Assembly: GCF_020731145.1 (NCBI RefSeq) | Contig: NZ_JAJFZN010000001.1 | Location: 186,001-250,000, forward strand | DNA: 64,000 nucleotides | Source of the DNA: Sneathiella sp. HT1-7 | GTDB lineage: Bacteria > Pseudomonadota > Alphaproteobacteria > Sneathiellales > Sneathiellaceae | Direction of reading: 5' to 3' | In this document: one piece after another, positions 16,000 to 33,078 of the stretch | How the letters are laid out: every line of letters starts with the position of its first letter | Position numbering within the stretch: the stretch's first letter is position 1 | The notes under the pieces: model-generated | Database searches by the model: none | What the model was told of the DNA's origin: nothing | Seen by the model: the letters and a program-made list of their open reading frames with translations, nothing else | Program-made: the position numbers and the translations under genes

Positions 16000-16089
16000 T
16001 TAGCCGCTATCTACAGTTCCCTTATTTCCGTCGTCTCGCGACAAACTGCTGCTGTAAGTGATCTATTCACACGGTCGCGTCGTAAAAAT

Positions 16090-16130: not shown

Positions 16131-16169
16131 AAAAACTTACGACCAATTTGGAAGACTTAGGAGAGTGGT

Positions 16170-17382: not shown

Positions 17383-17580
17383 AGCTCCGCGAAGGGTTTG
17401 GCTGATTTCTGGATATATCCCCAGAGCCAGGAGCTTTTCCTTACCGACGAACTGGTATTTAAAACGCCAGTATTTGCTGCCATTGGGCTGGATCTCCAGA
17501 TACAGGCCTTTTCCATCGGACAGCTTATAAGCTTTTTCCTTCGCTCCTGCCCTCTTGATTTTGATATCGGTTAGCGGCAT
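17377..17580 (-). pseudogene. P4-type tyrosine integrase remnant (N-terminal arm-binding domain only)
   Basis: 67 codons that match the first part of P4/CP4-57-type integrases: 'MPLTDIKIKRA' start, 'KAYKLSDGKGLYLEIQPNGSKYWRFKY' (arm-binding DUF4102 domain) and 'KEKLLALGIYPEIS'. The reading then runs into an unrelated tail of about six residues and a stop, where a full integrase continues for ~330 residues with the catalytic R, H-x-x-R and Y. None of that is present, so it is dead. It lies ~170 bases beyond the left island end, in the same orientation as the tRNA-Gln would have before island insertion. That is the usual place of a P4 integrase next to its tRNA target. Confidence 0.85.
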
Positions 17581-17752: not shown

Positions 17753-17769
17753 TGGCTGGGGTGGCAGGA
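17753..17769. repeat. Left attachment site (attL) of the island
   Basis: TGGCTGGGGTGGCAGGA, identical over 17 bases to the 3' end of the tRNA-Gln gene at 33004-33020. Sequence diverges immediately on both sides of the match. This is the displaced tRNA end expected from integrase-mediated insertion, and includes the encoded CCA. Confidence 0.88.
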
Positions 17770-18148
17770 AGCGCACCATGAAACCTATTTATCCAAATAA
17801 TTCAATAGTTTAAAAAATTACTGCGAACCCAAAAAAAATGATTTTGTACTAATAAAATGGACCACGTCAAGAAAATATATGTGCCGTAAAGACTGACCCG
17901 GAGCCATTTGTGTCCAAAAGCGTTTGATTGGTGAAACTTCGACTATACCTCAGAACATATGCGCTTGTTTGAATCCCGAAACATTGCTCAATGGTGGAAT
18001 TGATTGGTAGGTAATAGAGCACTGTTTTCCATGCGATTTCTTTATATCTGTTGGTTCATTGAATCGCAAAAACAGAGTAATCGGCAAATTCAATTTTCGG
18101 GAGAATACAATTTTTATTATGACTCTATGATGAATGCATCACACTGAA

Positions 18149-19132
18149 TTAGACATCGCTCGGAAAATCTACTCCAGGAACAAATAATTTAACATCATCG
18201 CCCTCAACCATAGTAATGTCTGCCTCGTTGCTGTAGGGCTCGTTAAATTGTCCCCGATGTCCTTTAAAACTCCCACATGCTGTATTAAAAGTTAAGCTTT
18301 CGCCAATCAAATAACAGTATCGCGCAAAACCTGCACCGTAGAGCCCGTCACTGCCTTTAGGATAATTTTTATATTTTTCAGAGTTATATTTTGGGTCAAG
18401 GAGGCTAACAAATGCTTTCTCAGCGTCGGCAGTCACACGCTTTTCGTCGATTTGAGGAAATATATCTTCGTCTTCAAAGATGTGCTCAGACTCGTAGGTG
18501 TTAACTTGCAATACATTTATATCAAACAAAAATATAAACGTTTCATCTGTTGGTCTTGCTCCTGGAAAGCGTTGCGGTTCATTTGCCAAAATATCCATAC
18601 GGTTTTTGTGCCCTCGCTTTAAAAGACGATCAAAACTATCTGTTTTCTTAGCAATCCCAACGTATAGAAGATCATAAGTCGCCAGTTCACGGTACTGATC
18701 CAACCCCTCAATACCTTTTCGACCATACGATTTATCCCAGAGAAGCTTCTCCGTACTGAACCATTCTAAAACATTAGAACCAGGTTGTTTAATAGGACCA
18801 TCCCATATTCGAATATACTTTTCGCCTATTTCTATTTCAATTTCCTCAGTATCGGCATTGATTACGTTGACCAAGTCGCCAACATTTACTGTGCAATTAT
18901 CTTCTATAGTATCGCCAATAGAAAACTTGAACGAGATAGCACCGTTATTCTCATTGATTTCGACGTCTATAAATTTCGCTTCGGCCCGACCACCAATCAT
19001 ATAAAAATCACTATTCCTGAATAGCTCTACGACTTCTGGATCGTTTTGCAACCAAACCGCCTCTTGGTTGCTAATCGGCGGATAAACCAACTCGAGTTTT
19101 GAAATTTTTGATTTAGTAAATGTTTCGTTCAT
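18149..19132 (-). CDS. Island protein with GIY-YIG-like domain
   Basis: 327 residues from ATG 19132, which has AAGGA 8 bases upstream (a GTG at 19138 is less likely). The C-terminal half resembles a GIY-YIG nuclease fold: 'YDLLYVGIA' near 155-163 stands for the Y-I-G strand, 'SFDRLLKRGHKNRMDIL' supplies a candidate catalytic Arg and a following His, and 'AEKAFVSLLDPKYN' (about 239-252) matches the metal-binding Glu helix with its P-x-Y-N end. The first GIY segment is not obvious. The N-terminal ~120 residues are acidic and unrecognised. It may be a nuclease for defence or element maintenance; this assignment is inference from motif spacing. It is the first island gene and stands alone. Confidence 0.55.
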   Translation of the reverse strand: MNETFTKSKISKLELVYPPISNQEAVWLQNDPEVVELFRNSDFYMIGGRAEAKFIDVEINENNGAISFKFSIGDTIEDNCTVNVGDLVNVINADTEEIEIEIGEKYIRIWDGPIKQPGSNVLEWFSTEKLLWDKSYGRKGIEGLDQYRELATYDLLYVGIAKKTDSFDRLLKRGHKNRMDILANEPQRFPGARPTDETFIFLFDINVLQVNTYESEHIFEDEDIFPQIDEKRVTADAEKAFVSLLDPKYNSEKYKNYPKGSDGLYGAGFARYCYLIGESLTFNTACGSFKGHRGQFNEPYSNEADITMVEGDDVKLFVPGVDFPSDV

Positions 19133-19592
19133 AAACACAGTCCTTACCGAGAAGATATTTGCCGAGCTTAGACTAGGATTTGGACTTATACCATCGCCTG
19201 ATTGTGAGACGGCACCATTGTGAGGGGTTTTGACAAAGCATTTAACGACGGGGGATCAACCCGCTAATGCTTCTCATAATGCGGATTAGGCGATTGAAGA
19301 TGTTGAGCGTAGCATTGATGACTTAGTCTTGCGACATGAGTTATTTATCGATTGAATTGTATGGTCTAGATACCGGTAAAAATGTATTTATTGGCATCAG
19401 AAGCCCGACATACGCTCTTGTCATATTCGGTAGGCCAGACCGAAAAATTCGGAAAATAAAATAATATATATAATAATAATAACAACTTAAATTATTATTC
19501 TTTCCCAACCGGAACGAAATTATCTAGCACAATTTATCTCTTTACAATTTATATTAGTTTTCTATTATTAATAGAATATAGAGGGTATTTAA
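19133..19592. other. Intergenic stretch with possible decayed ORF tail
   Basis: 460 bases between divergent genes. Most is AT-rich and uninformative, with a run of ATA/AAT repeats around 19455-19500. Positions 19290-19355 give 21 codons with protein-like composition (I-E-D-V-E-R-S-I-D-D-L) ending in TGA and preceded in frame by a TAG. This could be the end of a broken gene. I see no complete gene. Confidence 0.4.
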
Positions 19593-19973
19593 ATGAACAT
19601 AAAGCTTACAGGACTCACTTTGATGTGGTTCTCTGTTGTTTCATTTACTGCGATAGCAGAAGAACCACAAATCAAGATTGCCCAGCCCGGACAAAATATA
19701 ACAGTCTGGGACGGGTGGAATGTTAATGGGAAAATATATTTGAAATTGGATGGCGGCGATGGTTCCGACTGCGCCAAACTTTGGTGGATCACAATGGGCG
19801 TCAATTCAGATAGTTGGGAAGTATGTGATAGAGCGGAAGTGAATGTTGTTCTTCCACTGATATATGGCGAACTTAGGGCTGGCCATTTTACTAGGAAGAC
19901 GGCAATTGCTGTAAGTGATTCAGTTGTTGTTGCCTATTCTCAAGAGCTCTGCGGCAAGATTATCGAATGTTGA
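19593..19973 (+). CDS. Small exported protein of unknown function
   Basis: 126 residues with a signal peptide (hydrophobic 5-20, cleavage likely after 'AIA' at 22). The mature part has four cysteines (60, 78, 120, 126), enough for two disulphides, and is rich in Trp and Gly ('VWDGWNVNG', 'CAKLWWITMG'). I do not recognise a family. AGAGGG lies before ATG 19593. The lipoprotein gene 39 bases downstream is on the same strand, so the two are probably one operon and may work together in the envelope. Lower G+C than the flanking chromosome, as for the whole island. Confidence 0.72.
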   Translation: MNIKLTGLTLMWFSVVSFTAIAEEPQIKIAQPGQNITVWDGWNVNGKIYLKLDGGDGSDCAKLWWITMGVNSDSWEVCDRAEVNVVLPLIYGELRAGHFTRKTAIAVSDSVVVAYSQELCGKIIEC

Positions 19974-20012
19974 TATTCTCTCGACGGCCGAATTCAAAAT
20001 AAGGGAACTTCG

Positions 20013-21968
20013 ATGAAAATCAAACTTGCAATGCTCTTGTTAATTTCTCTGCTGGTTTCTGGCTGCGGGGATCCAATAAGTGACTATGTAAATAGTAATT
20101 TTCCTCCTGTTTCCATAGATGAGCAGCGCGAGAAAGCAGTAATTTCAGCAGTCACGGCAATTCAGAAACTCCAAGAACCTAATATTGCTCTTGGTCTTTC
20201 CCTATCTAAGGCCCGCGAAATTTTGCTTACTGATGAGATTAAATCGGATGGTGTAAAAGACCTTCGTCTCTCAAGTTCAAACCAACTAATGAAGTTAGAG
20301 GTGGATTTCGAGCACGTATTTACCGGAAAAGAGGGAAGCGCGGCCATTGGCGATAAATTGTTGACGCAATTTCACCCTATGGTTTCGGGAACTATGACAC
20401 TTTATGCAGGAATAACAAGTTCGACCCAAGATCAAAATGACAATACAACTTTCATAAACCTAAAAATCCTTCCGGCATTCGAAAGCTTAAAACTTTCGAA
20501 AGTTGTGGTTGCTGACGATTATGATGCCATACTTCTTGGCGACGCTATTATTAGTATTTTAAAAACATATGCCAATAATGTATCGGGAGAATTGTCCAAA
20601 CTCTCAATTATGGATTTAGAGGTGCCGTCTAGATTTACTGACACAGTTGACCCAAATCGGTTAATTCAGATAAAAAATACAGACGTCAGTGGCCAGGTTC
20701 AACTAACCGGAAATATCGTAACTGCGCCATTAAAATTACTCGGTATTGCGGCCCAGATGGACGGCAACCGCATTGTCGCACTTGGGCAATTTGCAAACGT
20801 TGATCAGCCTATACCTTCACCCCAAGAGGATGGCACAAAATCGAGCAAAGACGTAGAGGAATTGTTTTCGAACATTGTCAATAAAGTTTTTAAGGTAGAT
20901 ACTTATCCTAATGGTCTTTGGGTTGCGGTGCGCAAAGATCTAATCTCCTTTACCGCAAATGACGTTTTTAGGCAGGCATCAATATGCGCTTCTACGCAAG
21001 CTAACATTGCTGTTCAAAGGTTCGCGGAAACAATCTCTTTTCCTGACGAACATTCTGTCGATTGCACCCCTACAAGAGATTGCACTCCAACAAGACAGTG
21101 CGATTTTACTGAAAGCCACGACGATAGGGAATGTAGCTCATGTGCAGACGTACCATGTCCATCCTTTAGTGATCCTCTTAAGTTTTGTTCTAAATGTATC
21201 AATAATCCCGTTTGCGAGGCACAAAAGGCAGCTCAGAATGTAATATACCATGCCGACTATTTGGCTAAAATAGCTGATTGCGAACGTCTGAAAACTACGG
21301 AAAAAATTTCGTGTGAAGCGGAAAAATCGGGCGAAAAGGCTCTTTGTGAAACAGGAAAAGAGATTTTATTCAAACTAGCCAGAACTGGCAAATTTGCCAA
21401 CCTAGATGGGGCTTTTAGCGGCAAAGCAAATATTAACATGTGCATTCGCGACTTTGCATTTTCGCAAGACTTGAGCCAAATTCATGCGGCGTTGGGCGTC
21501 GAGGGATCAGCTGATCTTGATGTTTCTTTAAAATTCGTGCCGTTAGATATAGTCGGTCATCTGGCCTGCCAAGTTCCTTGGACAGAAGAGCAAAAGTTCA
21601 AAGCGACTGTACCTCCTCAGTTCCTAGTCATTGAGACTGCCATTAAGTTTAACAATGATAGAGACGAATTAAGCTACAATTTTAGCGTCGCGGAGAATGA
21701 ACTTGATTTTTCGATTTCTCCTGGACCCACTGAGTTTTTGCTAACAAGTGAAAACATGGCACTTGCATGTTCGGGTTTAAATCTCGCGAAACCTTTACTG
21801 ATACCGGCAACAGCTTTTATTCCTGAATTGAAAGGCAATTTTAAACACAAAATAGAAGCTATGTCAGTGACTACGAGCTTTAAGTTACCTTCAATTAAAA
21901 TCAACAATAAAACACTTACAGTTAACGTGTCTGAAACTGATAGGGCCATACTACTAAATGGAAAATGA
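20013..21968 (+). CDS. Large lipoprotein with cysteine-rich middle segment
   Basis: 651 residues. A lipoprotein signal is clear: hydrophobic 5-15 then V-S-G-C with lipidated C18. Residues 30-310 look like repeated beta-rich segments, and a second beta-rich stretch runs from 450 to the end. Between them lies a cysteine-rich segment, 12 Cys between 351 and 445. It begins with a near-duplicated D-C-T-P-T-R unit, then 'CSSC', 'CSKC', and is followed by three helices each with one Cys in a C-E-x-x-K/E setting. No known family is recognised. It is probably an outer-membrane-anchored protein whose Cys segment is disulphide-bonded. GGGAAC lies ahead of ATG 20013. Confidence 0.75.
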   Translation: MKIKLAMLLLISLLVSGCGDPISDYVNSNFPPVSIDEQREKAVISAVTAIQKLQEPNIALGLSLSKAREILLTDEIKSDGVKDLRLSSSNQLMKLEVDFEHVFTGKEGSAAIGDKLLTQFHPMVSGTMTLYAGITSSTQDQNDNTTFINLKILPAFESLKLSKVVVADDYDAILLGDAIISILKTYANNVSGELSKLSIMDLEVPSRFTDTVDPNRLIQIKNTDVSGQVQLTGNIVTAPLKLLGIAAQMDGNRIVALGQFANVDQPIPSPQEDGTKSSKDVEELFSNIVNKVFKVDTYPNGLWVAVRKDLISFTANDVFRQASICASTQANIAVQRFAETISFPDEHSVDCTPTRDCTPTRQCDFTESHDDRECSSCADVPCPSFSDPLKFCSKCINNPVCEAQKAAQNVIYHADYLAKIADCERLKTTEKISCEAEKSGEKALCETGKEILFKLARTGKFANLDGAFSGKANINMCIRDFAFSQDLSQIHAALGVEGSADLDVSLKFVPLDIVGHLACQVPWTEEQKFKATVPPQFLVIETAIKFNNDRDELSYNFSVAENELDFSISPGPTEFLLTSENMALACSGLNLAKPLLIPATAFIPELKGNFKHKIEAMSVTTSFKLPSIKINNKTLTVNVSETDRAILLNGK

Positions 21969-22175
21969 AAGGAATCTTGAATGACATTCAGATTCTTAAA
22001 TATTTTGCAAATTACAAATAAAGTCACAAATCTCACCGAGAAATTGGGTGATATTCACTTTCCCGACGGCAATATCCGAGACCCTTTAACCCACGCCGTA
22101 TATAAAAAACCTTGCAAAGTGAATACATCAGCCTTGTTCATCTTTGCTTGAGAATTAAATATTAGGTAACTGAAG

Positions 22176-22730
22176 TCAAAAAGATGAACTGCTTAGAATT
22201 CGGTAGACTGAAGCTCTGCCAATTCCGAGCTCTTTGGCAATATCAGATGGTCTAACGCCTTCCGAGAATAGTTTCCTAACGTCCATAGCTTTTGCTCTTG
22301 CCGTCGGTTTCCTCCCTTTATACTTCCCTTCGCTCTTAGCTTTGGCTATGCCCTCCCTCTGCCTCTCCAGCATGATTTGTCTCTCAAACTGACTAACAGC
22401 CCCCAGAAGATTCAGGACGAGCTCCCCAGTGGCATTGCTGGTGTCTATTCCAAGGTTAAGTATTTGAAGATGGGCGTCCTTACTCCGAACCGTTTCAACA
22501 ATTTCCCCAAGATGCCGCATGGATCTGGCTAGGCGATCAAGCTTGGAAACAACCAATGTATCTCCCTCACGCATATAGTCCAGCGCCAGAGCCAGTTGCT
22601 TCCTCTGGGCAACAGAAGAGACTTGTTCCTTGAATATCTTCTCGCAACCTTGTTTTTCCAGTTCTTCTATTTGAGATTCAAATCCTGCAACCTGTTCCAA
22701 TGTCGATGTACGCGCATAACCAATTTTCAT
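22176..22730 (-). CDS. Serine recombinase (resolvase/invertase family)
   Basis: 184 residues from ATG 22730, which gives the standard 'MKIGYARTST' start and has GGAA upstream; an ATG at 22745 lacks a ribosome site. The catalytic domain has the nucleophilic Ser in Y-A-R-T-S-T, then 'DTLVVSKLDRLARSMRHL' with the conserved R-L-x-R, and the long E helix 'LLGAVSQFERQIMLERQREGIAKAKSEGKYKG'. A short C-terminal helix-turn-helix ('RPSDIAKELGIGRASVYRIL') binds DNA. Small resolvases of this type resolve cointegrates, invert segments or stabilise replicons. Inverted repeats just upstream may be its own site. Confidence 0.93.
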   Translation of the reverse strand: MKIGYARTSTLEQVAGFESQIEELEKQGCEKIFKEQVSSVAQRKQLALALDYMREGDTLVVSKLDRLARSMRHLGEIVETVRSKDAHLQILNLGIDTSNATGELVLNLLGAVSQFERQIMLERQREGIAKAKSEGKYKGRKPTARAKAMDVRKLFSEGVRPSDIAKELGIGRASVYRILSSSSF

Positions 22731-23109
22731 AAGTTCAATTTCCATTATGTATCAATAGATACAAAACTATGTGGGAATTATGTCTCAAAATGCAATATTT
22801 ATTTATATGAGACGCAATTCAGCAACTGTGGAAGTGTCTCGTTTGGGCAAGGTCTAATGAGATAGACAGAGCTCAAGCTTTTTAAGTTACCAACGGGAAT
22901 AATTAGACTAAGCACTCTCAAGCCTCGGCATTTTTCATGATGTATTAAACCATTTAAATATCAATTAATTGATGTGCCAGAATACTAACTGAATATAATA
23001 CTCTGAGATCACAAATAATCTGGCAAACTAATATATGGAGAATTGGCGCATTGCTAATCTCGTTGTTTTGCGAAACACCGATTGAAAAGGGAGCATTAGA
23101 GGAAAATAT
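22731..23109. other. Gene-free stretch with inverted repeats, possible recombination site
   Basis: 379 bases between divergent genes. Close to the recombinase start there are two inverted repeats, TGTATC-AATA-GATACA (22748-22763) and GTCTCA...TGAGAC (22782-22813, 20-base spacer), which resemble resolvase subsites in size and spacing. The remainder is AT-rich with the promoter of the 611-codon gene. Site function is inference. Confidence 0.45.
22748..22813. repeat. Paired inverted repeats, candidate res site
   Basis: Two adjacent dyads: 6-bp arms around AATA (22748-22763), and 6-bp arms spaced by 20 bases (22782-22813). Both lie within 90 bases of the recombinase start codon, where small resolvases usually keep their res site and regulate themselves. 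Confidence 0.4.
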
Positions 23110-24945
23110 ATGATGCAACAATTACTGGAAAATTTCCGTAAATTTGTGCAATCAATTTTAATCCAATTTCGAAGGCTATTCATGAATCTTCAGACAACAA
23201 GCATTCTAATTCCCGAAAATATACAAACTGAAAAGTTGCGTAAATTATTGGCGTCTGGCAACACAAGCTCTGCTGCTGAGCAAATTCTAGTAAGTGAGCG
23301 TTATGAAAATGATCGATTTGGGCCAAACTATGAATATGCCCATATGCTCATGGCAGCCGTTCCAGAAGAATGTCTTGACGCCTTTGGTATTCCACGCGAG
23401 GCCGGTGAAGGCGTGGTTGCGCATTCGACGCCCTATGTAACGGAGAAAGGCGGTTGTCGTACCTATTCTCCCTCTGTGTCTGGTCACGACTATATTATCG
23501 CGTCTTGGGGAACAGGCTCATACTATGGTTTTAGCTTAGCCGACAAAGTATGGATGACGCTTGGTTTAACTCCGCGTTCTATAGGTGGAGATCACCAGAA
23601 ACTGATCTACGATGATTTGGAGAAGCCAATTTTTGCTGTAGCGCAAGGCGAAGTCTCAAACGAATATTATTGGATACAAAAACGAAACATTCGCTGGACG
23701 ATGCGTAATGACTATCTGCGAAAGTATCTCTGGATGCGCAATCTGATAGGCGTGAGAGTTTTTTACTACGAGACCAACCTTGATGACGTGCCTGATATAC
23801 GACAATTAATGAACGGGCAAACAGACATAACCGTCAAATCGGAATGCGGGAAACTTGAATATCGACTGATGGAATATATGGGTCGAATACGCTTGCAAGT
23901 GACGGCTGCAGTTCCATGCGTAGATACCGCGTTATGTAACGCCCCCAGTGCTGATGGATTATTGTGGCCCGGTCATAAATTTCCTATGACCCATGCTAAG
24001 GCTAACGCTCTTATTCTCGGAGAGCATATTTTTTTAAAAGACACCTTCCTTGAACGCTATGAACAAAATAGTATCTTTAATACTGTACCATTCAAGTATG
24101 GAGAAACTTGGTCCTGTTGTCCCTCTTATGGCGGCCAATGGGGCTTTACAGAATGCATTCGTGTCGGCCGCAATCTCATCAAAGTTCCCATTCGAGAGCT
24201 TTACATGCCAAAACCGGATGCTGAAATTTGTCATGCCCATTATCATTCGATTAGTGAACTTGAAGCAAAAAGCTTTGACTTAGATCAAGAACATATTGTT
24301 GAAAAAACAGATGCGTTTCTTGGTGAACTTCTGCGCCTTGCAGATAGTTTATTTGCTTTCGCAAGTGAGCTGGGAATCTCGACCTGCCCGGCGGTACTGT
24401 GCGGTTTCGATCGACATGAAATTAGTAAAAACGGATGGACAAATTATCCAAGATTATGCGAATTGGCGCAAGTCGCACCTTTAGAAATGACCGAAAAAAA
24501 GTTTTTATCCCGCTGTAAACTTTTGAATGAAACAATACAAAAAATTCCCAATGGTAAAATCCGGAAGATATTAATTGCTATGGGAGCAAATGCTTGTGAC
24601 ATTAAAAATCTACAGTCGCTTAAACTACTTCAAGGACTTTACACAGTTGTCGATAAATTGAATGAGAATGGCGAGAATTTACAAGCGTTAAGAGGCGGCG
24701 CAATTAATATTGACTTGTTAGGTTCTCAAAAAGCAATGGCTCCACTTTTCGTTAACAACGACCTTCGTAATGCTGATGCCCATGCAAATACTCAAACAGT
24801 ACAAACCTGTCTCACAAGTCTAGATTTTGATGTTGCTTTATTGAATGATGGATATGGGCTGGCGATGGATTTTATGTTTGATCAAGTTACAGAGACACTA
24901 AAAATTTTCGCCGACCAATGTGAACAAATCCTTCAAAGGGATTAA
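23110..24945 (+). CDS. Unknown 611-residue island protein with C-terminal HEPN-like motif
   Basis: No family recognised over residues 1-480. The N-terminal ~30 residues are amphipathic and basic; the middle is mixed alpha/beta with many aromatic and Cys residues ('WSCCPSYGGQWGF' about 334-346, 'EICHAHYH' about 372-379). The last ~130 residues are helical and contain L-R-N-A-D-A-H (R553, N554, H558), an exact R-N-x3-H match to the HEPN ribonuclease motif, followed by a long helix pair. HEPN domains are common effectors in defence systems. AGAGGA lies 7 bases before ATG 23110. It is 154 bases upstream of the nuclease-like gene at 25100 on the same strand, and the two are likely a functional pair. 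Function is inferred from the motif and context only. Confidence 0.7.
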   Translation: MMQQLLENFRKFVQSILIQFRRLFMNLQTTSILIPENIQTEKLRKLLASGNTSSAAEQILVSERYENDRFGPNYEYAHMLMAAVPEECLDAFGIPREAGEGVVAHSTPYVTEKGGCRTYSPSVSGHDYIIASWGTGSYYGFSLADKVWMTLGLTPRSIGGDHQKLIYDDLEKPIFAVAQGEVSNEYYWIQKRNIRWTMRNDYLRKYLWMRNLIGVRVFYYETNLDDVPDIRQLMNGQTDITVKSECGKLEYRLMEYMGRIRLQVTAAVPCVDTALCNAPSADGLLWPGHKFPMTHAKANALILGEHIFLKDTFLERYEQNSIFNTVPFKYGETWSCCPSYGGQWGFTECIRVGRNLIKVPIRELYMPKPDAEICHAHYHSISELEAKSFDLDQEHIVEKTDAFLGELLRLADSLFAFASELGISTCPAVLCGFDRHEISKNGWTNYPRLCELAQVAPLEMTEKKFLSRCKLLNETIQKIPNGKIRKILIAMGANACDIKNLQSLKLLQGLYTVVDKLNENGENLQALRGGAINIDLLGSQKAMAPLFVNNDLRNADAHANTQTVQTCLTSLDFDVALLNDGYGLAMDFMFDQVTETLKIFADQCEQILQRD

Positions 24946-25099
24946 AATCACAATCAGAGATCCAACATATTCCATCTGGTAAACGGCAACGCCATTGCTG
25001 TAAGCTTCTTCAACCTGCGCAAGCAAGAATGAATGTGTCCGACTACATCGAAAAGTTCTATAACTCGACATGAGTACAAGGGCGAGAAGGGGATTAGAG

Positions 25100-28000
25100 A
25101 TGGGGAAAGATGAAGCGGCAGAACCTAGAAAAACTGATCCTGCTTTAGCGAAGAAAATTTCGCCTTCTCAATTTATGAGGGAACTTCGCCCGGAGTATTA
25201 TTCCGACACTACGGATCGCGTAGCGTATGTACTAGAAGCCCCAACTCTAGAATATCATCTTGAGACGATTACTGAACGAAACCAGACGCAAGCTTTTGAA
25301 TTGTTTTGCCGCAAATTATGCGAGCGTACAATATGCCCTAATTTGCGTTCGCATACGGGGCCGGACGGCGGTGGTGATAGTAAAGTTGATACCGAAACTT
25401 ATCCCGTTTCTGAAGAAACGGGATCGCTATTTTATGTTGGCGAAGCCAACTCTGCCCATGAAAGATGGGCGTTTGCATTTAGTGCTAAGAAGACTTGGCC
25501 TGCTAAAGTTCGTGATGATGTAAAGGGTATTATTGAAACGGATAGAAATTATAAAAGAATAATTTTTGTCACCAGTAGATTTGCGAAAGATAAAAGCCGA
25601 GCAGGCGTTGAAGATGAACTTTCGAAACAGTATGGAATTCCTGTAACGATTCACGATAGATCATGGATCGTAAAAGAAATTATTGAGAACGACCGCAAAG
25701 ATATCGCATATAATTTTCTAGAAATCGGTGAGGTTAGAAATGCCCCACTCAGATTGGGACCAACAGATTACTCTCGGGCACAACAATTAGAAGATATAGA
25801 AAAGTCGATTGATGATCCCGACGCGTATCTTGGAATGGAACTCCAGAGAGTTACAGAGGCTCTCGTCGCCGCTAAGCTATCTAGAAATCTAGAACAATCG
25901 CGTTCGGACATCGACGGCCGTTTTCTTCGTGCAATTCGGTTGGCGAATAAGGATGGCTCGTTCAGACAACAATTGGAAGCTAAATATGAACATATATGGA
26001 CGGCATTTTGGTGGTTCGATGACTTTCAGTTTCTAAAGGATTCATACGAACCCTTTGAAAAAATTGCGCTTGAATCTAGTCGTGCAGTTAATTTGGAGTT
26101 TTTATGCAATTTATTACAACTCTTTATTAATTCAATTGTTCACGGGCATATGACGCGTGAAGAAAGCAAGCTAGACGAGCGGCTTGAAAAATTGAAACTA
26201 GCGTTAGAGTGTATAATCGAGAATAAAGATCAGCCGAACAATAGTTTAGAAGCGGAAGCCTCTTTACTAATCCTCCGAATGAATCAGATTTTTATTGATG
26301 GAAATCATGACAAATTGCCAGATGTTTGGAGAAATTTTGTAGAAACTTTGGAGAAGGCGAGCGGGCTCGGAGAATTCAAAGCTGATCGTTTTGTAGAAAT
26401 GATAGAAGTGGCAGGCGCAATTGCGGGGAATGACCCTGTCTATAACGATCTTGTAGACAAAGTGGCAAAATTTGTTTCAAACCGTAAAAGTGAAGCTGAA
26501 GGCGCAATAGTGCTCCTTAATCGCGCAAGGAAACTTGATTTCTCGGAACCATTGGAAATCATCCGTCTCTCGGGTAAGGCTGCAATTGGCCTCTCTAAAA
26601 AAGAGTATACTGATCAACTAATTGAAGCATTAGAACTTCTAACGCTTGCATATCGACGAGCAGGACTTTTGTGGGCTGCACGTGCAGGCTGTATTTCTCT
26701 TGCGACATCTCTTGTTGTCGAAAGCGAAGAGGATAGCATACTGCCTGCGAGCTTTGTCCCAACGATGAAGATTTTCGCTTGGATTGCATTGGAGCTTCAT
26801 CATTTACCAGATTTTCTTTTTGCAATTCAAATGTTGAATGGCGCACTAGCCTCACTTCCGTTGACAGAAGATTCCCTCGATAGAGCTAATGAGGACATTA
26901 AAGAGCTGGATCTAGCTTTAGGTAGCCAATTCCTGAATCTAAATGCGAAAGAACTTGAACGGCTGGAATGCTTGCCTGACGTACTAGAAGCGCTGGGATT
27001 GTTCATGGCACGCTCATCTCTTCTTTATATACTTGGTTATATGGATGCCCTGCGCACTGAGGGGTATGTGCCTAAAGAAGAGACGGATGAAGGGGCACAT
27101 CGAATTTTCTCAATGTTGGCTAGTCAACCAGTCGGTCAGAACCAACAAGGCTCCTTAATTTTGAATACAGAGGATATCCAAACTTTTAGGACGGCCATAA
27201 TCGGTATGAATGTCGAGATTAGTAGCAAAGGTAGTCTCCAAGCCATACTTGTAACCGAGGCCATTATGGGCTCTTTAGAAGCGTTTTTTGCGACAACGAT
27301 TGAACAGCGGATTTCTCCACACACTGAAAAGATAAGCATCAATTTAATTGTGAGCGACGAAGTATCAAAACCGTCACTTCAGTTGAAAGCGATGGATATG
27401 ACGGTCGAAATCAAGTGGCCTCGAGCACTGTCTCAAACAAATTTCAAGCAACAAAAAGAAGTGCTTAGTTTTTTGGCTGAGGTGTCAGGCACAGTTCTTG
27501 CTGCTACATGCTACGTGAAAGAAATAGATATGCTGTTAGACAAACTCTATGTCGACGAAGCCGTACAGCATAGGATGGCAATAGCCGCGTACGTTTCGAC
27601 CAGCTATAATAGGTTCGCTTCAAAAAATACATCGCGAATATCTGACTGGCAAGAGTTGGTAAAAAAAACCTACGAAATACGTGCCGAACGACCGACTCTT
27701 ACCACTATCGATCTGAATAAGTTAATTGATCCGGATTCGACCGAGAAAAAAGATGATAGAGGCATTTCTGATGAAATGAAGGACCATCGTACAGTTTCTG
27801 TGCGATCAGTTATCAATGTACCTGCATGGGATCAGGCGCGATGGAGGGGGACAGGTTTTTTACAGTCTGATCCAATTCAACCACCCCATTTTGCTTTTCT
27901 CTTTGAAGACAAAGCAGGTGCTGAAAAGATTTTTGAAGGTTGGCTAGCGCGATTTGGCAAACATGATGAAAATGACGAAATTTCCTTGTCCATAGTGCGT

Positions 28001-28324
28001 CATTTGCCCCTTCAGAATAAACACCATTACTATGTTTTTGTATCTTCCAAACTTTTGGATACAGACGACCCTGACATTGGGAAAAGAATTGCATTTTCTT
28101 CTCGGTATATGATGATGACCCCCGACAACGATATTAATTTGGAAAGATTTTTGGAATCTTTTCACCGAGTTGGAGCATTCTATTTATTGCCCGCCATAAT
28201 GAACAAAAATGGGCCACCAGAGTTTCTCGATGATTTAGCAATACTGAAACACGAGCTTTTTGTGAAATTGGCCAAGGATGTTAGAAAGAATGATGTCGAA
28301 ACGATTGTGTTGCGTGATACCTAG
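25100..28324 (+). CDS. Unknown ~1074-residue protein with N-terminal Mrr-like PD-(D/E)XK motif
   Basis: Start placed at ATG 25100, with AAGGGG 7 bases upstream; an ATG at 25070 has none. Residue numbers here count from 25070. The N-terminal ~200 residues look like a restriction-endonuclease-like domain: 'QAFELFCRKLCERTICPN' (lead helix), G-P-D-G-G-G-D at 97-103 (candidate metal Asp), E109, then the strand W-A-F-A-F-S-A-K-K at 133-141 with K140 in the position of Q/E-x-K, and 'RIIFVTSRFAKDKSRAGVEDEL' with 'VTIHDRSWIV' closing the fold. Residues ~220-900 are almost all helical, repeat-like, perhaps a sensor or scaffold. The ~150-residue C-terminus is mixed. A DNA-cleaving defence protein is the most economical reading, but this is inference. 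Confidence 0.68.
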   Translation: MGKDEAAEPRKTDPALAKKISPSQFMRELRPEYYSDTTDRVAYVLEAPTLEYHLETITERNQTQAFELFCRKLCERTICPNLRSHTGPDGGGDSKVDTETYPVSEETGSLFYVGEANSAHERWAFAFSAKKTWPAKVRDDVKGIIETDRNYKRIIFVTSRFAKDKSRAGVEDELSKQYGIPVTIHDRSWIVKEIIENDRKDIAYNFLEIGEVRNAPLRLGPTDYSRAQQLEDIEKSIDDPDAYLGMELQRVTEALVAAKLSRNLEQSRSDIDGRFLRAIRLANKDGSFRQQLEAKYEHIWTAFWWFDDFQFLKDSYEPFEKIALESSRAVNLEFLCNLLQLFINSIVHGHMTREESKLDERLEKLKLALECIIENKDQPNNSLEAEASLLILRMNQIFIDGNHDKLPDVWRNFVETLEKASGLGEFKADRFVEMIEVAGAIAGNDPVYNDLVDKVAKFVSNRKSEAEGAIVLLNRARKLDFSEPLEIIRLSGKAAIGLSKKEYTDQLIEALELLTLAYRRAGLLWAARAGCISLATSLVVESEEDSILPASFVPTMKIFAWIALELHHLPDFLFAIQMLNGALASLPLTEDSLDRANEDIKELDLALGSQFLNLNAKELERLECLPDVLEALGLFMARSSLLYILGYMDALRTEGYVPKEETDEGAHRIFSMLASQPVGQNQQGSLILNTEDIQTFRTAIIGMNVEISSKGSLQAILVTEAIMGSLEAFFATTIEQRISPHTEKISINLIVSDEVSKPSLQLKAMDMTVEIKWPRALSQTNFKQQKEVLSFLAEVSGTVLAATCYVKEIDMLLDKLYVDEAVQHRMAIAAYVSTSYNRFASKNTSRISDWQELVKKTYEIRAERPTLTTIDLNKLIDPDSTEKKDDRGISDEMKDHRTVSVRSVINVPAWDQARWRGTGFLQSDPIQPPHFAFLFEDKAGAEKIFEGWLARFGKHDENDEISLSIVRHLPLQNKHHYYVFVSSKLLDTDDPDIGKRIAFSSRYMMMTPDNDINLERFLESFHRVGAFYLLPAIMNKNGPPEFLDDLAILKHELFVKLAKDVRKNDVETIVLRDT

Positions 28325-28461
28325 CATTTCAATTTAATTTCGTTTTGGCATAGTTGGAAAACCCTTAGTTCCAGTCAGGTTGTGACATCTAGAAGTTACG
28401 AAAAGTAAATTGAATATATGTGCGTTATTCCTCTTGAGGCAGGCAAAGGTTGCCTGTTATC

Positions 28462-28489
28462 ACAAACCAACACGTCGGTGTTGGTTTGT
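28462..28489. repeat. Perfect 28-bp inverted repeat upstream of second serine recombinase
   Basis: ACAAACCAACAC, then GTCG, then GTGTTGGTTTGT: 12-bp perfect arms. It is 20 bases upstream of the recombinase start. A shorter dyad (AGGCAA-AGG-TTGCCT, 28441-28455) precedes it. The 28-bp length equals a typical resolvase crossover subsite. No T-run follows, so it is not an intrinsic terminator. Confidence 0.6.
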
Positions 28490-28508
28490 TAAATAGAGGA
28501 AAATGAGA

Positions 28509-29171
28509 ATGCAAAACGGATATGTGGGCTATTTCCGGGTTTCAACGGATCGGCAGGGAAAAAGCGGATTAGGATTAGAAGCCCAGCAACATTCTGTGGA
28601 AATGTTCCTCAACTCCGTCGGAGCAGAATTGACCTCTTCCTTTACTGAAATTGAAAGCGGAAAGATTGACCAGCGCCCTGAACTGGATAAAGCAATCAAA
28701 TATTGCCGTAAAACCAAGAGCACATTAATTGTCGCAAAACTGGACCGGTTAAGCAGGAATGCAACCTTTCTCCTGAAATTCGATGATATGGTCAAGAAAG
28801 CCAGCATTAATCTCCACGTCTGCGATCAACCCCATCTGGATCGCTTTACGCTGGGCATTCACGCCCTTGTAGCAGAACGAGAGAGGGAAATGATATCAGA
28901 GCGGACAAAAGCTGCCCTGCAGGCTGCTAAAGCCCGTGGCGTGATACTTGGAACAAGGAATGGGGCAAAGCTGAGTACCAAAGGTATTAAAGCAATCAGA
29001 CTGAAGGCCAATTCTCATGCGGAAAATATATCTGCGATCATTGAACAGATAAAAGCATCTGGTGCAGAGACATACCAGCAGATAGCAACTGCACTAAACG
29101 CAAGAGGAATTCCAACAGCACGAAACTCCGACTGGCATCCTGAAACTGTCCGTCGCATTCTCAATAGATAG
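28509..29171 (+). CDS. Serine recombinase (resolvase family), second copy
   Basis: About 220 residues. ATG 28509 is preferred: AGAGG lies 9 bases upstream, and only 3 bases from the in-frame ATG at 28503. The catalytic domain starts 'GYVGYFRVSTDRQGKSGLGLEAQQ' with Ser in R-V-S-T, includes 'TLIVAKLDRLSRNATFLL' with R-L-x-R, and 'LVAEREREMISERTKAALQAAKARG' as the E helix. The C-terminus has a recombinase-type 'ETYQQIATALNARGIPTARNSDWHPETVRRIL', so it is the longer Tn3-resolvase/recombinase form, not a copy of the one at 22176. It may act on the 28-bp inverted repeat immediately ahead. The two recombinases bracket the large-gene pair. Confidence 0.93.
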   Translation: MQNGYVGYFRVSTDRQGKSGLGLEAQQHSVEMFLNSVGAELTSSFTEIESGKIDQRPELDKAIKYCRKTKSTLIVAKLDRLSRNATFLLKFDDMVKKASINLHVCDQPHLDRFTLGIHALVAEREREMISERTKAALQAAKARGVILGTRNGAKLSTKGIKAIRLKANSHAENISAIIEQIKASGAETYQQIATALNARGIPTARNSDWHPETVRRILNR

Positions 29172-29882
29172 AACTTTATCCTTCGCTAGAAACATTCCAG
29201 CACCATCGAGTATTCATTAGACAAACAGTGATCCTTTCCAAGGACCTGACTTAATCTAGAAACTACGCAACAAATCTCAGGCCCTAACAAAAAAAACGGC
29301 CCCCCGCCCGTAATACAACCGTGGTCCCCCGAGAAAAATAGAAGAAGTTTTAGGGGGGCTAAAGGAGTCGGGATTTAATATATTTATATCAATCTCTATG
29401 TATCAAATTTATATAAATATATCGATTTTTATATATTTTGGGGCCACTGATATAAAAAACATACAAAAAAACAGCCTTTTTCAGCTAATTTCGCGACCCT
29501 GAGCACATATTTATGTGAAAATTATATAAAATTACGCTTTTATATTCAAATGCTTATCCAAAATTCTATATCAAATCGATATCAAAACCTCTTCATTATA
29601 CCCTCTTCTTTGTGTCAAATTTTTCTGCCCCCTTAAGGTTACGCTGATTTTTTCTCAATTCCTTTCGAAAAATTTGAGCTTATCCACATGGCTAACCGAA
29701 TAAATAGTAGCAACTTCACAGCGCAATTTTGCGACTGAAGAATGGACCGGTAATGAAGATAAGCTCATGTGAAAAACAATATCCAACCGAGTAGAGCATT
29801 TATTGGTTCTAGAGACTTATAAATTCATGCCAGTATAATCTCCAATACATCGTTATCTACAACAAAAGAAAACATAATTTTC
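29172..29882. other. AT-rich gene-free stretch, candidate replication origin
   Basis: 711 bases without a credible gene. A perfect DnaA box, TTATCCACA, is at 29680-29688, with one-mismatch copies at 29554-29562 (TTATCCAAA) and 29853-29861 (TTATCTACA). Positions ~29375-29460 and 29505-29580 are strongly A+T and contain the palindrome ATTTATATAAAT (29408-29419) and repeated TATCAAA units near 29401, 29569 and 29580, which could be iterons. The Rep-like gene begins directly after. These are the usual parts of an origin, but activity is inference. Confidence 0.5.
29680..29688 (+). promoter_or_regulatory. DnaA box
   Basis: TTATCCACA, an exact match to the DnaA consensus TTATNCACA, in the AT-rich region 195 bases before the Rep-like gene. 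One perfect 9-mer can occur by chance; two near-matches on the same strand nearby make it more credible. Confidence 0.5.
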
Positions 29883-30944
29883 ATGGCAAAAAGTTCAAAA
29901 ACCAGGCTTCCCATAGCGTATGCACGCCCGCAAAGCACTCGTCAACGGCGCAGTTTTCTCAAGTTTTTTGAATTAGCAATGACCGGAAACTATGATTTGG
30001 ACCGCATTTCCCGTATAGTAAGTAGCCTCTCATACCTCACAGGATATTCTCCACCTAGATGGACAGATTTAACCTCTAGTGAGAAATTTGTAATGGAACA
30101 AATAGTAGGTCATTTCTTTAAGATTAATTTTTCTATCACTTTCAATATTAGTGATGAACAACAACAAAATTGGATATCGAAACATAAAAACCTCACTATT
30201 GGATTCAAAAAGGAAATTCTTCACAAAGTCCGACACATATTAGGAAAGCACCCTACTTACTGGCTGGTAGTTGAGCCAAAGGTTTCTCGCGGAAAAAAAG
30301 CTAAGGAATATGTGGATAGGATAAACTCTCCTCGGAGATTTGATATTCATGCTGGGTTTTTAGTAGACAAGACTGATCTTGACCGATTTCAACAGGGATT
30401 GAGTAAAAGAGCAGCGGAGCTAAAGCTAAAAACTCCTAAACCATCCGGCGCGTTGCTCCCCAAAAAAAAGAAGCAGAAAATTCCATATCCCTTATTCCTC
30501 AAAGGGAAAATGGTTCAAGGCGCTTATATTGTAAATATTGGGTGGGCGACATACTCGTCCAAAGCTATTGCTCTGACTAAAAAAATGCACACGGATCTGA
30601 CTGGACCGACGCCTTTTGGAAAATCCAGAAATCTAACGCATGCGGCAAAAGCAGCATACGAACAAATTAGGATTGATGCTGCAATATACGAGATTCCTAA
30701 GCCGTTACTTGCCGACCTGGAGAAACTTTCGATATCGCCTACACGGAAGTTCAAACGCACCCACAAATCTCTATATGAGCCCTGCCAAAAACTACTGGAC
30801 AATACTATAGCGGGTTTAGATAAGTCATTATCACCAAACGATGATATTGAACAATTAGAAAAAATTTCCCATGCAGGAAAGGCCGCTGTAATTAACTGGG
30901 CCATAGATCAAGTTACTATTTTGGCACTTGGCAAAACAGATTGA
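29883..30944 (+). CDS. Island protein, possibly a divergent HUH-type replication initiator
   Basis: 353 basic residues. A hydrophobic strand 'YWLVVEP' (126-132) is followed by F-D-I-H-A-G-F-L-V (153-161), comparable to the HUH strand of rolling-circle initiators (H-x-H) but with Asp in place of the first His. Next comes 'DLDRFQQGLSKRAAELKLK' and, after a lysine-rich linker (190-205), 'YIVNIGWATYSSKAIA', in which Y224-x2-K227 fits the catalytic Y-x-x-K motif. The rest is helical. I do not recognise a close family, and the motif assignment is weak. Its place right behind an AT-rich, DnaA-box region supports a replication role. Ribosome site is poor (no clear GGAG before ATG 29883). The gene converges with the integrase. 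Confidence 0.55.
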   Translation: MAKSSKTRLPIAYARPQSTRQRRSFLKFFELAMTGNYDLDRISRIVSSLSYLTGYSPPRWTDLTSSEKFVMEQIVGHFFKINFSITFNISDEQQQNWISKHKNLTIGFKKEILHKVRHILGKHPTYWLVVEPKVSRGKKAKEYVDRINSPRRFDIHAGFLVDKTDLDRFQQGLSKRAAELKLKTPKPSGALLPKKKKQKIPYPLFLKGKMVQGAYIVNIGWATYSSKAIALTKKMHTDLTGPTPFGKSRNLTHAAKAAYEQIRIDAAIYEIPKPLLADLEKLSISPTRKFKRTHKSLYEPCQKLLDNTIAGLDKSLSPNDDIEQLEKISHAGKAAVINWAIDQVTILALGKTD

Positions 30945-31052
30945 CCTAATGCTAGGATCGCTCCTAATTACCGTCAGCAGTACCGATCACTCAGCAATTC
31001 GCCCTGCAGTCGCCAGCTACTATTGCCTCGTAAAATCAAAAAAACACTCCCA

Positions 31053-31069
31053 GGCACGCTTATCGTGCC
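31053..31069. terminator. Hairpin between Rep-like gene and integrase
   Basis: GGCACG-CTTAT-CGTGCC, 6-bp perfect stem in the gap between convergent genes. On the minus strand a T-run follows about 9 bases after the stem, so it is at best a weak terminator for the integrase. Confidence 0.35.
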
Positions 31070-31104
31070 ATTTAGAGCACGTTAAAAGTGACTTGTTCGT
31101 ACTC

Positions 31105-32898
31105 TCAGTTGTCAGCAGCTTTTTCAGCGAATAATTTCTCAACTTCTGGCCACTCTAACTTCGCTATCGCTTCCGCCAGATTTTCGAGACTGAACCCCTT
31201 ATGATAGACAGAGGTAGTCATGCTTTCACCGGAGTCATGCCCAACTAGAGCCTCGACTATTTCTTTGGATACGCCCTTATTGAGTAGCTGTGTAATGAAG
31301 CCGTGTCGAAAGGAGTGATAATCTACTCCTCTTTCAAAAACCCCTATTTCCTGTCGATATCGGGAAAACCATTTCGAGAATGCAAAGCCATATTTGGTGT
31401 CTGCACCTCCCGGTCTTAGTGCTGGAAAAATTGATCTTTCTGGTTCAGTCATAATACGATCTACGTAATCCAAAAAGCCAAGCTTCACTATAGTCGGATG
31501 CACTGGCACTCGACGCTCGGATTGTGCGTTCTTAATCTGCCTACCTCCAGCGCCGTGGATATGGAAAAAAGGTATATCCGCTTCCGACTGAATATCTGAT
31601 TTTCTTAATTGCGCAAATTCTTCAAGTCTATTGCCATGATACAGCGCTAACAACGGGAGCCAGTATTTTTCGTCTTTAGTAATGACACTTCCCGCATTAG
31701 AGCGATGCACCTTTGACTTGGAGCCTTGCCAATTCGGGGAAGCAAATAAAATCTCCAAATTTGCTACAGACCACTCCTGTCGCTTATTCCTCTTCGAGCT
31801 ATCCCTTTCAAATTTGTACCCAGAGGCCGGATTTCTGCCCTCATAAACGCCTTCATTCAGAAGATGCGAAAAAAACTTTGATAGGGCTCGATGATGTCGT
31901 TTCAAGGTATTAACCGCCAACGTTTCTTGAACTTTTCCCCCACCGTTTTTTATTATCTGTTGAAGTGATAAATCTCGACTTTTTATGGATCGTCCCCAGT
32001 CTCTTGGCAATTTTCTGATTAGAGAAATAAATCCGGCAATATCCGATTTTTGATATTCACTGACTGGCTTATCCCCGGCGACCTCAATGAACCTGACGAA
32101 AGTAGTCCTGTTTTGATTTACAGTTTGCCCTTTCCATTGGCCTGTTTGTATCATTTGAGCAATTACTGTTTCATAGATTTCTGAAAATTGAACGGGCCTT
32201 TTACTTCGAACCTGCTCGCTTCTCGGCTGTTCATTTGCCTCAGCTTTATTTCTCTCGGGGAAAAACTCCGCTTCTCCCCTATCCTTCATGTCCAGAACTG
32301 CTGAGAAAAGCGTATCGTTTGGTCGAAAGGAATAGTCGCCATCTAGACGTGCAAGCATAGTTTCATATGCTGCAATTTGCCCACGCTGGACAAGTCGGGC
32401 CAGTATTTGCTTAAGTGCCTGATTTTCGTTGTCGTCATCATGTAAGCTCTCAATGCCGACCGACGACAAGAAAGGCTCAATGTTTAGCGAACTGAGGGAA
32501 GTTTTATTGGCCTGCAGAGAAAATTTTTCCGCGTCTAACCTTGATTGCATCAATGCCCGCGTGAATGAGCGTGATGATTCAATTGTATTGGTTTCTTCGC
32601 AAAAAACATCCGCACTTTTCAATGAGAAATTTTCTTCCCATTTTTCTATTTCCCGTGAGAACATTTCCCTCGCAATGTTTTGGATATATTTGCTTGCTTG
32701 TCTGGGATTCATTTTTGCGTACTCGAAAAGCCGTTCACTTACCAAGTATAATTGTGCGGCGCGAATTTTAGCAAGCTTCCTGCTACCCGTTCCCAATGAG
32801 CGCTTAATTTCCGTAACGCCTATTCTTTCCTTGAATTCAGTAGGGACCTTCCTTCGAAAATAAAAGGTGCCACTTTGATTCTGGAGATAGCGTCCCAT
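31105..32898 (-). CDS. Tyrosine site-specific integrase of the island
   Basis: 597 residues from ATG 32898, where GAGGG lies 5 bases upstream (an ATG at 32931 in frame has no such site). Numbered from 32931, the catalytic set is complete: R435 in H-G-N-R, K467, H539-x2-R542 in 'YHSFRHGFI', H565 in G-H-D and nucleophile Y576 in 'SVYHKG'. The N-terminal ~50 residues ('YLQNQSGTFYFRRKVP') are the short beta-stranded arm domain seen in such long integrases; a ~200-residue helical region follows before the SAM-like core-binding domain (250-370). It lies 106 bases from the tRNA-Gln 3' end and reads away from it, so it is the enzyme for the 17-bp attachment pair. Confidence 0.95.
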   Translation of the reverse strand: MGRYLQNQSGTFYFRRKVPTEFKERIGVTEIKRSLGTGSRKLAKIRAAQLYLVSERLFEYAKMNPRQASKYIQNIAREMFSREIEKWEENFSLKSADVFCEETNTIESSRSFTRALMQSRLDAEKFSLQANKTSLSSLNIEPFLSSVGIESLHDDDNENQALKQILARLVQRGQIAAYETMLARLDGDYSFRPNDTLFSAVLDMKDRGEAEFFPERNKAEANEQPRSEQVRSKRPVQFSEIYETVIAQMIQTGQWKGQTVNQNRTTFVRFIEVAGDKPVSEYQKSDIAGFISLIRKLPRDWGRSIKSRDLSLQQIIKNGGGKVQETLAVNTLKRHHRALSKFFSHLLNEGVYEGRNPASGYKFERDSSKRNKRQEWSVANLEILFASPNWQGSKSKVHRSNAGSVITKDEKYWLPLLALYHGNRLEEFAQLRKSDIQSEADIPFFHIHGAGGRQIKNAQSERRVPVHPTIVKLGFLDYVDRIMTEPERSIFPALRPGGADTKYGFAFSKWFSRYRQEIGVFERGVDYHSFRHGFITQLLNKGVSKEIVEALVGHDSGESMTTSVYHKGFSLENLAEAIAKLEWPEVEKLFAEKAADN

Positions 32899-33003
32899 TG
32901 AGCCCTCTTGCGAACAAAAGTGTACTAGCAAAGTGTACTAACGCTAATGCACTTGGTGGGGACTCGCAAAAAGTCTAAGTATTTGAAATAGTTATATAAA
33001 AAA

Positions 33004-33020
33004 TGGCTGGGGTGGCAGGA
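33004..33020. repeat. Right attachment site (attR) within tRNA-Gln
   Basis: TGGCTGGGGTGGCAGGA, the 3' end of the tRNA on the minus strand, including the encoded CCA. Identical to the copy at 17753-17769. Confidence 0.88.
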
Positions 33021-33078
33021 TTCGAACCTGCGCGTGACGGGATCAAAACCCGCTGCCTTACCGCTTGGCTACACCCCA
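33004..33078 (-). tRNA. tRNA-Gln (anticodon TTG)
   Basis: 75 bases on the minus strand, folding as a cloverleaf: acceptor TGGGGTG with CACCCCA, D arm around GCCAAGCGGTAAGGC, anticodon loop TTTTGAT with anticodon TTG (reads CAA), T arm GGTTCGAATCC. The 3' CCA is encoded. It remains intact because the island's right end restored its 3' part. It is the integration target here. Confidence 0.96.

Follow-up and report, generated by a model that had tools for sequence, protein, structure and literature searches.

A candidate replication-or-nicking module, with a possible HUH-like initiator, in a tRNA-Gln island of Sneathiella

We analyzed a window of 64,000 nucleotides – the whole stretch of DNA from Sneathiella sp. 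HT1-7 considered here – that contains a 15.2-kb integrative element. Positions 29172-30944 may constitute a replication-or-nicking module of this element, in which ORF353 would serve as a divergent HUH-like initiator – a tentative reading to which we assign a probability of roughly 0.38. In our best reading of the element as a whole, it would carry a module of integrase, initiator/nickase, and recombinase, and would be a variation on the SGI1/IME kind. The preliminary description of this DNA had proposed a replication origin inside the element. An origin or nick site within 29172-29882 is plausible, given DnaA boxes, AT-richness, a plasmid-type recombinase, an HUH-like motif order in ORF353, and ORF387, a homologue of ORF353 at another locus, whereas neither a known Rep family nor clear iterons were found.

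The island and its target site

The features that define the island and the candidate module are as follows.

17770-33003: integrated island, 15,234 bp, 41% GC (41.3%)
17753-17769: attL core, a 17-bp copy of the tRNA-Gln 3' end; plus strand TGGCTGGGGTGGCAGGA
33004-33020: attR core, the final 17 bases of the tRNA-Gln gene
33004-33078: tRNA-Gln gene, the target of the island
31105-32931, minus strand: tyrosine integrase, 608 aa, with DUF6538 and Phage_integrase domains
28503-29171, plus strand: res222, a small serine recombinase with Resolvase and Recombinase domains
29172-29882: candidate origin or nick region, the 711-bp gap between res222 and ORF353, 34.7% GC
29883-30944, plus strand: ORF353, member of an undescribed family and candidate initiator or nickase, with homologue ORF387 in locus L094

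The claim that this DNA lies in an integrated island was confirmed: positions 17770-33003 are an island integrated at tRNA-Gln. A tyrosine integrase stands beside the tRNA gene, the 17-bp attachment sequence is repeated directly at the two ends, and a relative (G019) retains an insert-free site. In G019 a PAS gene comes within ~70 bp after the tRNA gene, the one found to the left of the island in the window. The DNA flanking the island is mostly 47-55% GC in 2-kb windows. An ispE match was present in 22 other Sneathiella genomes, and for comparison within the genus we fetched loci from 16 of them. On the minus strand, the DNA past the attL core is GAACCTCA; six of the 16 loci (G007, G021, G017, G001, G013, and G015) have the same sequence directly 3' of their tRNA gene. 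Because the sequence past attL is the one that follows the tRNA gene in six relatives, the island was inserted between the tRNA gene and pre-existing DNA.

Related integrases occupy the same tRNA gene elsewhere in the genus. The most similar one found, in G002, is 74% identical to that of the window, and others are present in G008 and in G018, where the integrase lies in two frames. The 1.45 kb between the far side of the G002 integrase and the contig end contains no ORF353-like gene. Two related integrases are split over two and four frames (L064 1910-3668, plus strand, and L081 15372-17111, minus strand, respectively) and are decayed copies in the genus. To the left of the island, 17377-17580 (minus strand) holds the remnant of an integrase N-terminus, 90% identical over 60 residues to the 409-aa integrase that G007 carries at this tRNA-Gln (L059 17225-18454, minus strand), which we take to be P4-type. 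The remnant implies that this tRNA-Gln site is a hot spot that has received successive islands.

We scanned ten ORFs, among them the nine main ORFs of the island, against family libraries. Among these nine, convincing matches came from only three genes, namely the integrase and a pair of serine recombinases. None of the ten ORFs matched a relaxase, type IV secretion, coupling, or other mobilisation family; in PHROGs, matches to families with a known function came only from the same three genes; and no capsid, terminase, or excisionase gene was recognized among the scanned island ORFs. The preliminary description had likened the element to ICEs and satellites. Neither likeness is supported: these ten ORFs matched no relaxase or type IV secretion family, and the PHROG result included no phage packaging, capsid, or primase genes.

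The AT-rich region ahead of ORF353

Within and around the 711-bp gap we identified the following features.

29378-29422: AT-only inverted repeat, arms 29378-29393 and 29407-29422, with a 12-bp perfect core
29554-29562, plus strand: DnaA-box-like TTATCCAAA, one mismatch
29675-29767: second inverted repeat, arms 29675-29689 and 29753-29767, the first of which contains the perfect DnaA box
29680-29688, plus strand: perfect DnaA box TTATCCACA
29810-29839, plus strand: sigma-70-like promoter match ahead of ORF353 (TAGAGA, 18 nt, TATAAT)
29853-29861, plus strand: DnaA-box-like TTATCTACA, one mismatch, 21 bases before the ORF353 start codon

This AT-rich, DnaA-box layout ahead of ORF353 is a real, non-random sequence feature, and its components agree with those first described. 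Positions 29281-29882 (602 bp) have 33.9% GC, versus 41.3% for the island, and when the 64 kb were scanned in steps of 10, both the lowest-GC 600-bp window (starting at 29311 and running 28 bases into ORF353) and the lowest-GC 200-bp window (starting at 29371) began here. The one perfect and two near DnaA boxes that had been reported were recovered, all three on the plus strand. Local dinucleotide shuffles of the 602 bp held a mean of 0.19 boxes, with 0 of 2000 reaching three; for the 711-bp gap, 1 of 2000 did so. The other very AT-rich gap of the island (200-bp windows at ~19441, 24.5% GC) holds no DnaA box with 0-1 mismatch.

We compared this cluster with the distribution of boxes at larger scales. 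DnaA boxes are mildly in excess over the whole window (18 versus 11.8 expected, with as many in 5 of 100 shuffles), and the genome contains 34 perfect boxes in 3.83 Mb, versus 15 for a backward control. In a set of 1.78 Mb, comprising the window and 102 loci, we counted 287 boxes with at most one mismatch; in three independent places, three boxes clustered within 350 bp (L074, L084, and L088 were excluded as duplicates; L083, the window's own sequence, gave no separate cluster). Only the cluster at 29554-29861 combines a perfect box with placement on a single strand, and the other two clusters imply ~0.07 chance clusters per 64 kb.

These counts bear on a more ordinary explanation, in which ORF353 is an accessory gene with some other role and is controlled from 29172-29882, an AT-rich promoter region whose boxes are there by chance or for DnaA-dependent transcription. 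We consider this nearly as likely as the preferred reading. The mildness of the window-wide excess and the two other three-box clusters in 1.78 Mb fit it, as do the position of the box at 29853 between the -10-like TATAAT and the start codon, the lack of Rep homology in ORF353, and the failure to find the DnaA-box region at the Azospirillum locus described below. Set against these points are the coincidence of the three boxes with the lowest GC of the window, the HUH-like motif order of ORF353, and the fact that its homologue occupies the equivalent position next to a related integrase in another bacterial order – a position that suits a mobility gene better than cargo. Sigma-70-like matches as such are about as frequent in 28400-31120 (7) as in shuffles (mean 6.0).

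Repeats were also present in the region. The palindrome noted in the preliminary description corresponds to the AT-only inverted repeat at 29378-29422; 1.8% of 500 shuffles contained one as long, and its folding is ordinary (14 of 200 shuffles as good). The stretch around the second inverted repeat (29660-29790) folds with a z of -2.56, and 2 of 200 shuffles were as stable. The TATCAAA units that had been noticed number three on the plus strand (29401, 29569, and 29580), a count seen in 0.05% of 2000 shuffles. An iteron search, proposed in the preliminary description as a check, took the form of a de novo repeat test with 14 overlapping settings and 60 shuffles. The result was reached by no shuffle in 4 of the 14 settings, by 3-4 shuffles in 3, and by 6 or more in 7. 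Among these, a 20-bp unit in four degenerate copies, allowing up to 5 mismatches, was matched by 0 of 60 shuffles; each copy differs from the reference at 5 positions. Because the settings gave mixed outcomes, iterons in 29172-29882 are possible but not established: the degenerate copies are suggestive, and clear iterons did not emerge.

We also considered GC skew as evidence for an origin and rejected it. The skew flips from plus to minus near 28-29 kb, partly tracking gene strand, and the sense of this change is wrong for an origin.

ORF353 and its homologue beside a related integrase

ORF353 is coding by a simple codon score (0.097 in frame versus at most 0.035 in the five other frames; other island genes score 0.129-0.183). 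The AT-rich region had been described as lying directly ahead of a possible Rep gene; its position is as described, whereas homology of ORF353 to a known Rep family was not found. No family was matched in Pfam at E ≤ 10 or in NCBIfam or PADLOC to E 0.1, and the sole PHROGs match to E 10 was phrog_1824 (E 0.012), a family without known function, so that none of the four libraries assigned ORF353 to a known Rep or relaxase family. Searched over 96 class genomes, phrog_1824 found only ORF353; over 398 phylum genomes, it found ORF353 and one weak match. ORF353 also had no match in the PDB.

Direct searches for relatives of ORF353 gave a similar picture. No homologue at E ≤ 0.001 was present in the other 141 of 142 genomes, and none that was convincing appeared in 385 class genomes to E 1 or in peptide-seeded scans of genome and viral collections. 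Weak matches appeared in 24 other class genomes (E 0.016-0.79); those whose loci were extracted were judged to be chance once aligned. A tblastn search of plasmids gave none at E 0.01; extended to E 10, it returned two records, the best (E 0.008) over a methyltransferase-like frame of Rhizobium tropici, which we took as chance. Phages gave no match to ORF353 at E 0.01, nor to a 56-residue piece of it to E 10.

A homologue was identified among genes that neighbor related integrases. We covered 75 of 80 related-integrase loci (omitting L097, L100, L133, L134, and L142) and from the interior side of each collected no more than two ORFs, with a minimum length of 150 aa, for a total of 135 ORFs from 72 loci; L084, L150, and L159 yielded no ORF, and nine loci yielded one. 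Among these 135, ORF387 from an Azospirillum metagenome bin (L094, JAIXTS010000388.1) matched ORF353 with a phmmer E of 0.0025 and 28% identity over 147 residues. The Smith-Waterman score of the pair was 91, versus 60 or less in 2000 shuffles of ORF353 and 48 for the next best of the other 134 ORFs. In the reverse search, with ORF387 as query against 9265 open frames, ORF353 ranked first after ORF387 itself, though with an E of 0.072.

The ORF387 locus resembles that of ORF353. It consists of a tRNA-Gln, a related integrase, and ORF387 convergent with the integrase, as for ORF353, with gaps between the convergent gene and the integrase of 160 bp (ORF353) and 113 bp (ORF387). L094 also encodes a recombinase that is 46% identical to res222 over 222 residues. 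No DnaA box with 0-1 mismatch was found near ORF387, which is preceded by only ~0.2 kb. An integrase, an ORF353-type gene, and a res222-type recombinase therefore occur together in two orders, the Sneathiellales and the Rhodospirillales. This association speaks for a probable mobility role of the ORF353-type gene rather than one as cargo, as judged from one homologue. A type I restriction system is also encoded at L094.

Searches for further members were made with ORF387 and with the pair. ORF387 had no plasmid or phage match, and the pair recovered no convincing third member. An alignment of ORF353 and ORF387 matched seven other genomes among 385 class genomes at E ≤ 0.05 (best E 1.3e-6). These matches were rejected: six of the seven fell at alignment columns 53-140, which are largely ORF387-only columns, and five of the seven contained stop codons. 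A core alignment of the pair, run over 191 relatives, gave one other match, which had five stops and was likewise rejected.

The leading, tentative reading of ORF353 is that it is HUH-like. In the extracts of PMC5714925 used here, HUH proteins are defined by motifs I, II, and III, with motif II comprising two histidines and the tyrosine motif always lying in an alpha-helix. ORF353 and ORF387 share the blocks FSITFNI/MTFSINL, (V/I)EP, RRFxIH(A/G), and GWxxYSxKAxxLT, whose order is that of HUH motifs I-II-III. The ORF353 residues kept in ORF387 include E131-P132, R151-R152-F153-x-I155-H156, and G220-W221-x-x-Y224-S225-x-K227-A228. The (V/I)EP, xIH, and YSxK blocks had been flagged as HUH-like in ORF353 before the homologue was known, and all three are kept in ORF387. 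Motif I was at first placed at the EP block; the later profile alignment places it at FSITFNI. At motif II, both proteins lack the first histidine (D154-I155-H156 in ORF353, G-I-H in ORF387). The YxxK of motif III is present by sequence in both (Y224-S-S-K227 in ORF353, YSLK in ORF387).

Profile and structural comparisons with HUH proteins gave mixed results. Our reference set of nine HUH proteins comprised seven of nine PF23343 matches (L183 was dropped and L184 not taken) together with L147 and L105. Against the untrimmed set, the single ORF353 sequence did no better than chance (87 of 200 shuffles as good); against the trimmed set, the two-sequence core aligned in register with an hhalign score of 16.6, which 2 of 100 column shuffles reached. 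PF23343 had no match in G000 at E 0.001. A low-confidence structure model (pLDDT 41.5) has three strands separated by helices, plus a further helix following the last strand; it places Tyr224 just before a helix rather than in one. The best Foldseek match of this model had an E of 0.027, with Z of at most 5.3, and most matches were to alpha/beta proteins of a ferredoxin-like type, with the AAV Rep origin-binding domain among the weak rows (Z 4.4). Against viral models nothing was found at E ≤ 0.001, with HUH-type Reps among the weak rows. A structure predicted from the single sequence (pLDDT 34.5) was not used.

Possible mode of action and related systems

Under our preferred reading, the DUF6538-type tyrosine integrase would insert the element into tRNA-Gln and probably also excise it. 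ORF353, as a putative divergent HUH-like initiator, would nick the AT-rich region upstream of its own gene through Tyr224, with one of the inverted repeats (29378-29422 or 29675-29767) as the candidate nick site, and DnaA would be recruited to the three boxes. Nicking could then lead to copying of the excised circle or to a helper-driven start of transfer, and res222 would resolve multimers.

Like HUH/rolling-circle Reps, ORF353 has the motif order I-II-III, a conserved YxxK, and a non-coding region beside its gene, as these are described in the same extracts (PMC5714925). It differs from them in having one of the two defining histidines (D-I-H, or G-I-H in ORF387) and in matching no family significantly. 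Theta origins are the more usual setting for DnaA boxes. A more specific proposal is that a still unnamed family of single-histidine HUH-like initiators serves alphaproteobacterial tRNA-Gln elements, with ORF353 and ORF387 as its first two members, and that the Sneathiella element combines a nickase with a DnaA-box origin in a mixed rolling-circle/theta mode; we regard this version as rather doubtful.

The region just downstream of res222 invites comparison with plasmids, on which this kind of recombinase is common: res222 has relatives on at least 5000 plasmid records, with less than 60% identity among the matches listed. From 12 listed plasmids that encode a res222 relative we opened 7, of which 6 are annotated, and found a Rep gene adjoining the recombinase in one, pMaD11 of Marinovum algicola (CP010866). 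There, a res222-related serine recombinase, direct repeats, and an initiator gene lie on one strand. The differences are that pMaD11 is a free 5.8-kb plasmid and that its RepA belongs to the RPA family (PF10134), unlike ORF353; RepA was considered as a relative of ORF353 and rejected for lack of similarity.

We evaluated SGI1 as a second point of comparison. According to the portions of the published accounts available to us, SGI1 replicates after excision from an oriV that adjoins its RepA_C gene and combines AT-rich DNA with a putative DnaA box and four 17-bp iterons (PMC7433901, PMC7826253), and it has a resolvase gene (PMC12217951). The Sneathiella element shares with it, as described in those portions, an integrated state, a (here putative) initiator gene adjoined by AT-rich DNA with a DnaA box, and a resolvase gene; replication after excision would be a further likeness. 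As far as the same accounts go, it differs in that ORF353 is neither RepA_C nor the alternative replicase (replicase-PriCT) and has no Pfam match, that clear 17-bp iterons were not found, that the candidate region lies upstream of ORF353 whereas the SGI1 oriV lies downstream of its gene, and that the target is tRNA-Gln rather than trmE. No xis, mobilisation, or transfer genes were recognized here.

Both comparisons bear on the possibility that the region is a captured theta-type plasmid replicon resembling SGI1 or IncN-like replicons, with iterons, DnaA boxes, and a Rep of an unrecognized DNA-binding family. The boxes, the AT-richness, the four imperfect copies of the 20-bp unit (matched by 0 of 60 shuffles), the recombinase-repeats-Rep layout of pMaD11, and the parallels with the SGI1 oriV as extracted from PMC7433901 (iterons, putative DnaA box, AT-rich DNA) would all accord with such a replicon. 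We nevertheless think it unlikely: of the three hallmarks of an iteron replicon, DnaA boxes in AT-rich DNA were found, iterons of ~17-22 bp were suggested by the degenerate repeats, and a Rep of a known initiator family was not found, ORF353 matching no Rep family in Pfam or NCBIfam and showing no similarity to the pMaD11 RepA; the 20-bp copies have 5 differences each, and 7 of 14 repeat settings are ordinary; and the conserved YSxK and xIH blocks suit a nickase better.

A nickase could also act in transfer. In the excerpted accounts, replication of R391 depends on its own relaxase and oriT (PMC4489591), and Streptococcus has IMEs whose putative relaxases are of the RCR type (PMC5704250). The element resembles those IMEs, as characterized in the excerpt (PMC5704250), in its small size, its integrated state, its nickase-like gene, and the lack of recognized secretion genes, and differs in that no coupling protein was recognized and ORF353 matches none of their families in Pfam. 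If 29172-29882 were an oriT at which ORF353 acted as a relaxase-like nickase, with a conjugative element as helper, the HUH-like motif order would be accounted for, and the RCR-initiator-like putative relaxases of the Streptococcus IMEs would provide a precedent, as far as that excerpt describes them (PMC5704250). This mobilisation module is nonetheless distinctly improbable, with no coupling or mobilisation family among the ten scanned ORFs, no relaxase family for ORF353, and a region that contains DnaA boxes. To our knowledge, such boxes are not expected of an oriT. The element may work like the SGI1, R391, and IME systems; by the tests above it is a member of none of the SGI1, ICE, or satellite groups.

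The source extracts consulted name a few groups of integrated elements that replicate after excision – SGI1, SXT/R391, and actinomycete elements – and searches of the available literature on DUF6538, Sneathiella genomic islands, and alphaproteobacterial island initiators gave no description of this element. If the preferred reading is correct, the occurrence in alphaproteobacteria of an unrelated initiator family together with a recombinase and a tRNA-Gln integrase would suggest that such modules have been missed, their initiators being too divergent for family libraries, and the element would offer a small, testable replicon for this class.

Several further observations concern other genes of the window and of loci with related integrases. 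Adjacent large genes at 23110-28324 encode proteins of 611 and 1084 aa with relatives on 8 and 14 plasmid records, respectively, mostly annotated as 'hypothetical protein'. Neither protein matched Pfam, PHROG, NCBIfam, or PADLOC at E 0.1, and by inference only we consider the two genes candidate defence cargo.

Two kinds of protein recur near related integrases.

L065 7863-9143 (plus strand), L077 13134-14576 (minus strand), L078 7642-9153 (minus strand): phrog_4756 family members
L147 12204-12692 (plus strand), L105 10696-11235 (minus strand): small proteins with an HUH motif, matching PF23343 below its cut-off (E 0.0019 and 0.0045, respectively)

The first is a family of 426-503 aa, found in three related-integrase loci, that matches phrog_4756 (function unknown in PHROG) with E values down to 1.7e-49. 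Searches of Pfam with two members, NCBIfam with three, and the PDB with one gave no support for a polymerase; by eye, the family resembles the palm of a family-A polymerase (VELDYSG, LPVHDSF). The second comes from Parvibaculum and another alphaproteobacterium. Lastly, a tandem pair of paralogous genes at 15367-16805 of the window is also paired in four other Sneathiella loci (L059, L060, L063, and L072).
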